Origin: Xanthomonas sontii
Lineage (GTDB): Bacteria; Pseudomonadota; Gammaproteobacteria; Xanthomonadales; Xanthomonadaceae
NCBI RefSeq assembly: GCF_040529055.1
Contig: NZ_CP132342.1
Coordinates: 3,904,001 to 3,968,000, forward strand
Length of the DNA: 64,000 nucleotides
Reading direction: 5' to 3'
Positions 5,299 to 19,440 of the stretch are shown one piece after another. The position numbers were made by a program, and so were the translations under genes. Within the stretch, counting starts at the first letter, position 1, and the number at the start of each line of letters is the position of its first letter. The notes beneath the pieces were generated by a model. It searched no databases. It was not told the origin of the DNA and saw only the letters and a program-made list of their open reading frames with translations.

Positions 5299-5985
5299 TC
5301 AGGCCGCCGCGGCGCGCACCAGTTCCGCATAGGTCTGCGGCAGTTCGCGCATATGTTCCATCACCGCGGCCACGCCGAGCTGGCTCAGGGTCGCGGCGTG
5401 CCCGGCGGGAATGTGCGCGGCGCCAGTAAAGCCGATCACGGTCATGCCCGCGGCCAGCGCGGCGCTGGCGCCGGTGGCGCTGTCCTCGATCACCAGGCAG
5501 CGTTCCGGCGCCACCTCCAGCGTGCGCGCGGCCAGCAGATACACGTCCGGCGCGGGCTTGGGCCGCGCCACCATGTCGGCGCTGAAGATGCGTTCGCCGA
5601 CACGCTCATGCAGGCCGGCGCGCGCCACCGAGGCGACCACGCTCTCGCGCATGCTGTTGGAGGCGACCGCCAGCGGCAGCGGCAACGCCAGCAAGGCCTC
5701 GCGCACGCCGTCGATCGGCTGCACCTCGGCGGCAATCAACGCCTCCGAGCGTGTGCGGATCTCCTGGCACAGGCCCGGCGGCAGCGCCAGCGCGTACTGC
5801 CGTTGCACGCGCTGCACGATTTCCTGCGCGGTGAGGCCGAAGCTGCCCGCAAGAAAGCGTTCCAGTTCGGCCCGCGGCACATAGGCGCCCAGCGCGTCGA
5901 GCATCACCCGGTCGGCCAGCACTTCGCTGTCGACGAGCACGCCGTCGCAATCGCTGATCAACAGGTCGAAGGGGGTCGCCGTCAT
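5299..5985 (-). CDS. HAD-IA hydrolase, phosphoglycolate/beta-phosphoglucomutase-like
   Basis: A 228-residue HAD phosphatase. Motif I is DCDGV at residues 12-16 (nucleophile Asp12, acid/base Asp14). The LVDSE signature follows, then ASNSMRESV (motif II), KPAPDVYL with its Lys (motif III), and IEDSATG (motif IV). The helical cap between motifs I and II marks subclass IA. This is the GpmB/YieH/YniC-like group acting on small phosphosugars or phosphoglycolate; the substrate cannot be read from sequence. The ATG at 5985 is preceded by AAAGGAG at proper spacing, so the open frame running further upstream is ignored. Confidence 0.88.
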   Translation of the reverse strand: MTATPFDLLISDCDGVLVDSEVLADRVMLDALGAYVPRAELERFLAGSFGLTAQEIVQRVQRQYALALPPGLCQEIRTRSEALIAAEVQPIDGVREALLALPLPLAVASNSMRESVVASVARAGLHERVGERIFSADMVARPKPAPDVYLLAARTLEVAPERCLVIEDSATGASAALAAGMTVIGFTGAAHIPAGHAATLSQLGVAAVMEHMRELPQTYAELVRAAAA

Positions 5986-17262: not shown

Positions 17263-17453
17263 CCGGCACACAGCCCCCAGCGTCGCCTCAATGCGCATTA
17301 GTGGTGCATGGGCAACGCAGATCGGCATTTGAACCTCTCAATACAATATTTTCATATGAAACTATTGAAATCTTAAAGATCTTGCCTTGCTACAGGCGCG
17401 GTGCTAGCTTCTGCTCGTCGCCGCATGACGACATCTAGAAAAGGAGCTTTGTG

Positions 17454-17618
17454 ATGAAAATCCAAGATGGCAAGCTTGAGAAACAAGATTCTCCATCCAA
17501 TCCTTTCGCTATCCAGCTCGACGAACCCATGCAAAATATCGCAGCGCCTGGCGTCTGCGAGATGAAGCCTTATCTTGGTGAGGATTCTCGCGGGTACTCC
17601 ACGCAACCTGGCGGCTAA
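17454..17618 (+). CDS. 54-residue peptide, candidate RiPP precursor
   Basis: A small ORF with a strong ribosome-binding site (AAGGAG, 17441-17446) seven bases before the ATG. The N-terminal ~27 residues are charged and leader-like (KIQDGKLEKQDSPSN). The C-terminal half is Gly/Pro-rich with acidic residues and one Cys (AAPGVCEMKPYLGED then SRGYSTQPGG). An asparagine-synthetase-like gene follows. In lasso peptides such an enzyme closes a ring between the core N-terminus and an Asp/Glu at position 7-9. Candidate pairs here are Ala30-Glu36, Ile29-Glu36, Cys35-Glu43 or Met37-Asp44. The usual Thr at leader position -2 is missing, so a lasso fold is not assured. The gene is AT-richer than its surroundings. 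Confidence 0.6.
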   Translation: MKIQDGKLEKQDSPSNPFAIQLDEPMQNIAAPGVCEMKPYLGEDSRGYSTQPGG

Positions 17619-17651
17619 AACGACGGCGATTGCACCAAAGGCATCGCGATA

Positions 17652-17679
17652 AAGAGCGCCGCCATCAGGCGGCGCTCTT
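17652..17679 (+). terminator. Strong hairpin between precursor and synthetase genes
   Basis: A perfect 12-bp stem (AAGAGCGCCGCC with GGCGGCGCTCTT) with an ATCA loop is followed by CTGTTCT, a weak U-tract. It lies 33 bp after the peptide stop and 54 bp before the synthetase. It may partly terminate transcription so that peptide mRNA exceeds enzyme mRNA, or protect its 3' end. Confidence 0.7.
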
Positions 17680-17732
17680 CTGTTCTAAAGCGCGATAACC
17701 ATCCGACGCCGATCGCAGGCAGCCGCGTCGCC

Positions 17733-19298
17733 ATGATCAAGGCCAACGTCGCTTTTTCCGACCTCGAACATTCCCCGGTGTGGCAGGACAGTATCCTGTG
17801 TCTCGGGAACAGCCAGATCGCGCCCTACCGTCACCCTGCGCTGGAAACCGTCGTGGTTCGCACGCAGGGACAGTGGTTCGCGACGGTACGCGAGCGCTGC
17901 ACGGACGTCGAATGGAAAAAAGACGATACGGGCGTGCTGGTCGATGCCGATCAATTCAACCGGCTATACAAAGAGGCTCTGCTATGGCCGCTTGATTATC
18001 TCATGATCGAAGTGGCCCAGGCCGGATCCCGACTGAAATTGCGCGCGGGCCTTCTCGCATCGGCGCCGGTCTATTGCCGGGTCACCGATGCCGCAGTAGA
18101 AATCTCCTACGATCTGGCCGACTTTTTTTCCCGACCCACCACCATCGACCTGGAGATGGCCAGTCGGCGTCTCGCACTTAACGCGGACTACTCCGCCAGA
18201 CAGTTGTGTTCGGGTGTCGTAATGCTGACAGAACGCGCCACGCTTTACGCCGAGCCGGCCAAGACGCGTTACGTCTATCCTTCGCCTGCTGACATCGGAT
18301 CGCCTTCCCAAGAAGCACTGATCGACTACGGCGTAGAGCGATTCGAGCAGTTGTTGCATCGTGCCATTTCGATTCGTCCCGCGTCGAAGCGGGTGGCCAC
18401 GGAGTTGAGTGGGGGCATGGATTCGGCGACGGTTGCATGCGCTCTGACGCGATCGCATGACAACATCCTGAGCTTTGGAATCTTGCTCGACGAGGGAGAC
18501 AGTCAAAACCAGGCACAACGCCGTCGCATGCTTGTTGAAAAGCTCGGCCTTCGCGACACGAGCATCCCTATCGCTTCATTCCCACCAACGCTCGATCTGC
18601 AACCGAGCGCGGCTCGACCGGACTATCCCCTTGTCGAGTTCTATCTCGAAGCGTTCGAACATTTGTGGGACTGCGCTCAAGCACAGGAAAGCGAATGGCT
18701 TTTCACCGGTATTGGCGGAGACCAGCTGTTCCCAATGTACCGGAACGAGGAACATCCCAGCGCAGGTCCCGGCAGCGGGGTGGCTGCAGAAGCCAAACGT
18801 CGCGCGAATCTGTTGTTGACGCCCCGAGCGCTCACTGCATCGCGTTCGATCAGTGGATTTGATGCTCCCACCGGTCTGTTGTCTGCATCCGTATTGGCGT
18901 CGAACGCGTGCCAGGCTCCCCATCTGCTTCGGCGAGGCCTCTGGCCGGTCAATCCCTTAAGCGATCCACATCTGGTGGCTTTCTGTCGGGGCCTCCCCCT
19001 CGAGTGCCGTAAAGATCGAGAAACGATGTGGCGCTATTTACGGGCCAACGTAGGCGACCTATTTTCGCGAGATTATTGCAAGGAAACGTTCGCCCATGTC
19101 CTGCCTGAGTTGATCGCACATCACGCCAAGACGATCGCCGTGCAGCTGAGCGAATGCGCCCTTGCCGACTTGGGCTTGGTCGACCGAGACGCCGTCCTCC
19201 AACTACTGGACGAGTTGGTGGCGACGCGCGCGCGTCCGCTGACGGCACCATTGATCTCGTTCCTTTGGCTGGAGCGCTTCGTTCGGCAGTTTGCCTGA
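17733..19298 (+). CDS. Asparagine-synthetase-like amide-forming enzyme, lasso-cyclase-like
   Basis: A 521-residue protein. The PP-loop SGGMDS lies at residues 226-231 (ATP adenylation) and a GIGGDQLF segment at 326-333 corresponds to the GDGGDELF motif of asparagine synthetases. The first ~200 residues resemble the glutaminase-like domain but lack its N-terminal catalytic Cys, so no ammonia from glutamine is expected. This pattern is that of lasso cyclases (McjC type) and beta-lactam-synthetase relatives, which join an amine to an activated carboxylate. It follows the 54-residue peptide gene, its presumed substrate. It is somewhat shorter than typical lasso cyclases (~600). Third codon positions are visibly less GC-biased than in neighbours, hinting at transfer. 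The substrate is inferred only. Confidence 0.75.
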   Translation: MIKANVAFSDLEHSPVWQDSILCLGNSQIAPYRHPALETVVVRTQGQWFATVRERCTDVEWKKDDTGVLVDADQFNRLYKEALLWPLDYLMIEVAQAGSRLKLRAGLLASAPVYCRVTDAAVEISYDLADFFSRPTTIDLEMASRRLALNADYSARQLCSGVVMLTERATLYAEPAKTRYVYPSPADIGSPSQEALIDYGVERFEQLLHRAISIRPASKRVATELSGGMDSATVACALTRSHDNILSFGILLDEGDSQNQAQRRRMLVEKLGLRDTSIPIASFPPTLDLQPSAARPDYPLVEFYLEAFEHLWDCAQAQESEWLFTGIGGDQLFPMYRNEEHPSAGPGSGVAAEAKRRANLLLTPRALTASRSISGFDAPTGLLSASVLASNACQAPHLLRRGLWPVNPLSDPHLVAFCRGLPLECRKDRETMWRYLRANVGDLFSRDYCKETFAHVLPELIAHHAKTIAVQLSECALADLGLVDRDAVLQLLDELVATRARPLTAPLISFLWLERFVRQFA

Positions 19299-19305
19299 CA
19301 ATCCC

Positions 19306-19440
19306 ATGCAGCAGGCGAAGCCAGGGCGGCGAGACCTCGACGTCATCGAGGCGGCGGTCAAGTATGCGCACCGCCTCTACCCATTCCAGCTGAACGGCAA
19401 GATCGACCAGCCATGGAAGCAGGTGACCAATTCGGTATGA
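19306..19440 (+). CDS. 44-residue ORF, possible remnant of a lasso B2 protease
   Basis: It begins seven bases after the synthetase stop and would be translated by coupling. The sequence includes DLDVIEAAVKYAHRLYPFQ, recalling the segment just before the catalytic Cys in lasso B2 leader peptidases (a helix of the type V..AV..A.R..P). It then ends with no Cys, His or Asp catalytic region. It could be a truncated B2 gene, a novel small partner, or chance coding. No family assignment is possible at this length. Confidence 0.35.
   Translation: MQQAKPGRRDLDVIEAAVKYAHRLYPFQLNGKIDQPWKQVTNSV

Follow-up and report, generated by a model that had tools for sequence, protein, structure and literature searches.

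A short peptide gene and an adjoining gene for an asparagine-synthetase-family enzyme, located in a 64,000-nucleotide stretch of Xanthomonas sontii DNA (contig NZ_CP132342.1, positions 3,904,001 to 3,968,000; hereafter the window, to which positions refer unless another locus is named), appear to form a separate two-gene system for a ribosomally synthesized and post-translationally modified peptide (RiPP), in which the enzyme is predicted to close an isopeptide macrolactam between Lys38 and Asp44 of the precursor. We assign this reading a probability of roughly two in three (0.66). The genome consists of a single contig of 5.02 Mb. The precursor gene (54 amino acids plus stop, 17454 to 17618), the enzyme gene (521 amino acids plus stop, 17733 to 19298, beginning 114 bases 3' of the precursor gene) and the motifs and hairpin described below all lie on the + strand. 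A preliminary description of this DNA had offered two alternatives, either a novel RiPP class requiring a single enzyme or a decaying lasso peptide cluster; the former is supported by the recurrence of the gene pair across phyla and by the conservation of the acidic residue Asp44.

The pairing of the two genes was examined with a profile of 18 enzymes, which gave matches in 9 of the 395 sampled genomes of the host family, 30 of 398 of the order and 1 of 296 in the family of a Bradyrhizobium. A scan of a species-level genome collection yielded 79 loci. The close set was defined as the 72 loci whose enzymes exceeded 280 bits against this profile; it contains 52 distinct enzymes and includes three enzyme fragments (L028, at a contig end, L036 and L038). 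All 72 loci carry a precursor match on the same strand as the enzyme (independent E-value, i-E, of at most 1e-5), and the precursor ends 40–165 nt 5' of the enzyme in 65 of them. The precursor search model was built on 28 precursors of close-set loci, which match by construction, and 74 of the 102 distinct precursors that were drawn from the loci and the protein database are outside its alignment. The precursor is located downstream of the enzyme in L013, L014, L034, and L095 (L095 and L014 are from the same genome), two copies are found 447 and 2171 nt upstream of the enzyme in L015, and five close-set loci (four genomes) contain two precursors each. In the Bradyrhizobium loci L036 and L038, the enzymes are incomplete (frames of 370 and 281 amino acids) and intact-looking precursors are located further off. 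Relatives of the enzyme, down to approximately 25% identity, were identified in Pseudomonadota, Actinomycetota, Myxococcota, Acidobacteriota, and Bacteroidota, and a short peptide gene adjoins almost all of them. The conserved pairing that the preliminary description had proposed as a check thus recurs across phyla, and these sequences indicate a genetically coupled precursor with a conserved leader and core, as defines a RiPP. The closest named relatives of the window enzyme are from Xanthomonas (98% identity in an uncultured Xanthomonas sp. and 87% in X. sacchari). The locus L003, labelled Rhodanobacter sp., encodes an enzyme with 81% identity to that of Xanthomonas, and its peptide is almost the same; the copies of other Rhodanobacteraceae are much less similar. 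This copy may represent a recent transfer or a misnaming.

In an alignment of 28 precursors ranging from Xanthomonas to Bradyrhizobium and Cupriavidus, the mean column identity is 34% and the only invariant columns are Met1, Pro25, Lys38, and Asp44. Lys38 and Asp44, the predicted macrolactam partners, delimit the core motif KPYLGED (residues 38–44, 17565 to 17585), and the same alignment revealed a putative leader recognition motif, NPFAIQLDEPMQ (residues 16–27, 17499 to 17534). Every one of the 102 distinct precursors contains either Lys-x5-Asp (93) or Lys-x6-Asp (9), and none has Glu substituting for Asp in the absence of any Lys-x5/6-Asp. One of the nine was counted by an additional Lys, and its homologous motif likewise has the x6 spacing. 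The conserved acidic residue that had been named as a further check on the RiPP assignment was found in Asp44, which is kept along with Lys38. The residues directly N-terminal of the Lys vary (EM, AP, LP, TP, GE, PF, and YH), as do the C-termini (GG, WL, YM, YL, EI, AS, and RRN). The single Cys and the final Gly-Gly, to which the preliminary description drew attention, are present in the window peptide but are not features of the family; they were rejected as key features because they are poorly kept among the 102 distinct close-set precursors (29 with a Cys and 26 with a GG end).

The same spacing was found at more distant loci. The distant set comprises 37 loci (L037 and L039–L074), whose enzymes are approximately 23–32% identical and which were initially treated as an outgroup; the close-set precursor model has no match in any of the 37. 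Upstream short open reading frames (ORFs) with a Shine-Dalgarno site and the same spacing include EYTKEAGSSDTSDEYDEM in Lentzea, ETKKFSGNSDTNTERDEHE in Streptomyces, APKINEGNDRYGGYP in Myxococcus, and VRKRVDGSDSIGGYPPE in Gluconacetobacter. These distant peptides were spotted via the motif itself, and a retest selected candidates blind to it, as ATG- or GTG-initiated ORFs of 28–150 amino acids with a Shine-Dalgarno match and an end at most 400 nt upstream of the enzyme. A Lys-x5/6-Asp within the C-terminal 60% was counted as a hit, and three loci at contig ends were left out. A motif candidate was found in 32 of the remaining 34 loci versus 13 of 544 control windows of the same loci, a strong enrichment in which the loci are related and the counts are not independent events (six Streptomyces peptides, for example, are nearly identical); in a per-ORF control, the motif was present in 42 of 1423. 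Two loci were misses in the retest: at L044 (Bacteroidota), a motif peptide is present but has no Shine-Dalgarno match, and at L062 no motif peptide was found. A wider profile applied to further genomes gave matches in 1 of 247 Acidobacteriota, 1 of 249 genomes of a Sphingomonas family, and 13 of 249 of a Pseudonocardiaceae set. Of the resulting 17 loci, 8 had been found before and 3 were fragments lacking the start of the enzyme; at each of the remaining 6, which were new, an upstream motif peptide was found out of sample.

Two of the distant precursors contain repeated cores. In L048 (an Acidobacteriaceae metagenome-assembled genome; also recovered as L131), four core units, KGTAG(T/Q)D(A/S)Q(N/S/G)RR, are present in one precursor (approximately 5500–5912 of that locus), and in L133 (a second copy in Sphingomonas) there are three units, KGTAGQDAQRRR, KRISGTDAQRRH, and KGTAGQDAQRRR. 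Both Lys and Asp are retained in every unit of the two precursors, whereas the middle unit of L133 differs between them. The repeats resemble a multi-core RiPP precursor, and their sequences suggest that the Lys-x5-Asp unit is the element that is modified. The Sphingomonas genome containing L133 also holds a single-core copy, L043.

The Pfam score of the window enzyme (Asn_synthase, PF00733; 43.2 bits versus a cut-off of 21), its PP-loop, and its fold matches place it in the asparagine synthetase superfamily; the prediction that it is a peptide macrolactam synthetase draws on Pfam, an AlphaFold2 model, PDB folds, alignment, and tree. As had been described, its ORF contains both SGGMDS and GIGGDQLF and the glutaminase Cys has been lost, the protein starting with MIKAN with no Cys after the start Met. 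In a divergent alignment of 25 rows, S226, G228, and D230 of the ATP-binding PP-loop SGGMDS (residues 226–231, 18408 to 18425) are identical in all 25, and neither the window enzyme nor any of the other 24 rows has the N-terminal nucleophile Cys; an apparent leading Cys in the L048 row is an artefact of where that row was cut and is residue 7 when counted from the GTG at 5944. Position 327, within GIGGD (residues 326–330, 18708 to 18722), aligns with the Glu of the asparagine synthetase SGEGSDE motif and is not conserved (11 Ile, 6 Leu, 4 Phe, and one each of Val, Asp, Ala, and Thr); this position varies in lasso cyclases as well and thus does not separate the present family from them. The score against the model for glutamine-dependent asparagine synthetase (TIGR01536) is 32.3 bits, far short of the cut-off of 267.1. 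The solved folds nearest to the AlphaFold2 model are those of beta-lactam synthetase, carbapenam synthetase, TsnB9, and asparagine synthetases. In PDB sequence searches, a wider family profile detected asparagine synthetase B (7.9e-6) and others, and the close-set enzyme profile detected nothing at 1e-3. The residues that we take to be catalytic in beta-lactam synthetase could not be placed reliably on the window enzyme.

Membership of this superfamily would also accommodate an enzyme that amidates or nitrilates the peptide carboxylate in the manner of TsrC, ScdTA, and PesC, or that couples a small amine to Asp44. Such reactions, together with approximately 300 uncharacterised candidates near RiPP genes, are reported in passages of PMC13060819, but the absence of an N-terminal Cys for glutamine use from the 25 aligned rows and the unconserved C-termini fit them poorly, and the invariant Lys at a fixed spacing would be left unexplained. 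We consider this explanation quite improbable.

Another explanation is an ordinary lasso peptide, in which an unlinked or housekeeping protease would remove the leader and the newly formed alpha-amine would join Asp44, 7–9 residues in, with the Lys serving for recognition only. Lasso cyclases belong to the same enzyme superfamily, the ring size fits if the N-terminus is at residue 36, 37, or 38, and the title of a work cited in a passage of PMC13352647 refers to a lasso peptide produced with neither a leader nor a leader peptidase. Matches to PF13471, the leader peptidase (B/B2) family, were found at an E-value of 1e-3 in 21 of 30 close-set genomes, 16 of which have one above the cut-off somewhere in the genome, but the window's own genome contains none. 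Most of the matches in close-set genomes are weak and occur in frames of approximately 500 amino acids or more, and the coordinates of the 24 listed place none of them within a fetched locus. Among 28 distant genomes (14 with matches), none of the 27 listed matches could be placed in a locus, with contig numbers or names that were not always matchable, and the gene list of one genome, G428, includes no PF13471-type frame. The variable residues that precede the Lys also speak against an ordinary lasso pathway, which would leave the invariance of the Lys unexplained and would require several cleavages in the tandem cores of L048 and L133. The enzymes themselves are separated from lasso cyclases. 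As controls, 15 regions around PF13471 matches were collected, and an SGGxDS enzyme was present in 14 of them. In a maximum-likelihood tree, 43 family enzymes, 42 of which (all but that of L062) have a motif peptide, are divided from the 14 lasso cyclases by one branch with an SH-aLRT value of 100 (a quick method without bootstrap); L073 and L126 form long branches, the placement of which is unsure. The window enzyme is also far below the cut-offs of the NCBIfam lasso models (19.1 versus 525 for NF033535 and 26.5 versus 300 for NF033561). Production of an ordinary lasso peptide is therefore regarded as unlikely.

Under the favoured reading, in which the enzyme joins Lys38 to Asp44, the precursor would consist of an N-terminal leader and a C-terminal core carrying Lys-x5-Asp. 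The leader would be bound by the enzyme, the beta-carboxylate of Asp44 would be adenylated with ATP in the PP-loop site, and the side-chain amine of Lys38 would attack the activated Asp44, generating the isopeptide macrolactam with the loss of one water; trimming and export would be performed by other proteins. An enzyme that uses an amine of its own substrate does not need glutaminase activity. Beta-lactam and carbapenam synthetases likewise form intramolecular amides without glutaminase use. Since the attacking amine would be a Lys side chain, no freed N-terminus and hence no leader peptidase would be needed before ring closure, which would explain why none could be placed at the loci. By calculation, K-x5-D gives a ring of 26 atoms and K-x6-D one of 29; in lasso peptides, closure on Asp7 to Glu9 gives rings of 22–29 atoms (26 for Gly1-Glu8). 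Lasso cyclases themselves, according to a passage of PMC9266682, are glutamine-independent members of the asparagine synthetase family that close an amide within their substrate.

Several observations weigh against this reading. The pairing and the motif are established; the bond, the order of the steps, the recognition of the leader, and any biological role are predictions from sequence and predicted fold, and the invariant Lys could instead serve recognition. The Lys at position 450 of the enzyme (19080–19082), which aligns with a conserved C-terminal KE, is replaced in 8 of the 25 rows (by Arg in four, Pro in three, and Thr in one); if this is the pyrophosphate-binding Lys of asparagine synthetases, these replacements are unexplained. 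When the peptide and enzyme were folded as one chain with AlphaFold2, the peptide was not placed, the predicted local distance difference test score (pLDDT) being below 50 for residues 1–90. L062 (Yoonia) encodes a family enzyme with no motif peptide found nearby, and the relatedness of the loci, by which their counts are not independent events, also weighs here. A more specific proposal, in which a class of its own spanning several phyla would close the 26- or 29-atom Lys-Asp ring with the leader still attached, on single or tandem cores and with a possibly threaded tail (i.e. a lasso closed through a side chain by one enzyme), seems to us rather doubtful.

The preliminary description had also noted a good ribosome-binding site for the 54-residue ORF, and both elements are present: the gene, for which homologues were found, starts at ATG 17454 and stops at 17616–17618, and AGGAG, read in the sequence at 17442–17446 (Shine-Dalgarno match 5/6), is located 7 nt 5' of the ATG. 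An alternative GTG at 17451 would lengthen the precursor by one residue. The ratio of nonsynonymous to synonymous substitution rates (dN/dS) for 10 distinct Xanthomonas-type precursor genes (45 pairs) is 0.079, and the gene is thus under strong purifying selection. A perfect 12-bp GC-rich hairpin is located between the precursor and enzyme genes (17652 to 17679; fold z = -3.38 for the whole intergenic stretch), and stems of at least 8 occur in 45 of 49 distinct intergenic stretches versus 248 of 2450 shuffles. A terminator scan of the window did not flag this hairpin, whose T run is weak; it is probably an attenuator or a transcript-stability element and probably raises the output of the precursor over that of the enzyme.

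These data also bear on whether the pair is what remains of a lasso cluster, or whether the peptide ORF is a chance occurrence next to a gene of asparagine-synthetase type. Although no protease, exporter, or immunity gene adjoins the pair in Xanthomonas, such an origin is at odds with the dN/dS value, the presence of the same motif in several phyla, and the conserved hairpin; it is refuted as far as sequence can refute it, and we give it almost no credence. The decaying or reduced lasso cluster of the preliminary description was likewise rejected on the grounds of purifying selection, the recurrence of the two-gene set in other families and phyla, and the separate position of the enzymes in the tree. 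If a lasso leader peptidase plays no part, the missing Thr at position -2 does not point to decay.

Apart from the peptide gene, no neighbour is widely shared among the loci. The tiny ORF at 19291–19440, formerly thought to resemble the start of a B2 protease, has a TTG start and no near-significant family match, and its frame is not intact in five inspected Xanthomonas-type loci, a short similar stretch being present only in L084. With no PF13471 in the genome either, it was rejected as a B2 protease. The presence of an S9 peptidase gene facing the pair was confirmed (PF00326, 167.9 bits), but this peptidase does not belong to the system; it was rejected as a lasso isopeptidase (59.2 bits versus a cut-off of 400) and falls outside the neighbours common to at least four loci. 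In nine rhizobial and Cupriavidus loci (L023, L024, L029–L033, L035, and L038; four scanned), an ATP-binding cassette (ABC) transporter gene is located at most 6 kb from the pair, accompanied in L023 by a gene for an HlyD-type protein, and these may be regarded as a candidate exporter. A GNAT acetyltransferase gene adjoins the enzyme gene in three actinobacterial loci (L037, L042, and L046), and an APH-type phosphotransferase gene is located directly 3' of it in Mesorhizobium and Cupriavidus (L023:7533–8522 and L032:7588–8571, respectively).

The system resembles several known ones in part. It shares with lasso peptide (A-B-C) systems, whose C protein is asparagine-synthetase-like, a short precursor, the enzyme superfamily, a macrolactam that is predicted to involve the side chain of an Asp, and a similar ring size, but no leader-peptidase gene was placed at its loci, the predicted nucleophile is an invariant Lys rather than the new N-terminus, and the enzymes, of approximately 520 amino acids, occupy their own side of the tree. 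Graspetides (microviridins and kin) contain a macrolactam between Lys and an acidic side chain, as described in a passage of PMC8939145. In graspetides this bond is made by ATP-grasp ligases, whereas the only conserved partner here is a PP-loop enzyme of the asparagine synthetase family, and no ATP-grasp match was found among the part of the neighbours that was scanned. Beta-lactam and carbapenam synthetases, the best or near-best PDB matches, have the same two-domain asparagine synthetase fold, but their substrates are small molecules and the rings that they close have four members. TsrC, ScdTA, and PesC share the superfamily and a peptide substrate, according to passages of PMC13060819, but these enzymes act on the C-terminus (amide formation by TsrC and ScdTA, nitrile formation by PesC), whereas here the C-terminus is unconserved and there is no N-terminal Cys. 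The passages of this 2026 preprint further count approximately 3,800 superfamily members near RiPP elements, of which approximately 3,500 are lasso-related and approximately 300 uncharacterised, and suggest that the latter may perform amidation, nitrilation, lactam formation, or other reactions; some members of the present family may be among them. No description of the family was found in open-licence PMC full texts, a search that extended to neither subscription papers nor supplements. We rate the family as a separate class on the basis of its precursor, its motif, its gene set, and the clade of its enzyme. If the Lys-Asp ring is real, this class had gone unrecognised in the literature searched, and chemically it would unite the enzyme superfamily seen in lasso peptides with the type of bond found in graspetides.

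If the proposed bond is correct, one enzyme would suffice to produce macrolactam peptides of lasso-ring size, and the Lys-x5-Asp rule would predict products directly from the genomes of at least five phyla. Besides lasso closure and the amidation or nitrilation of C-termini, the asparagine synthetase fold would then have a third peptide chemistry, and cyclic peptides could be made with a small, possibly multi-core tool. Even with a different bond, this would be a widespread and conserved precursor-enzyme family, for which none of the 11 precursors scanned, namely that of the window and 10 from other clades, scored above the cut-off of any Pfam or NCBIfam model.

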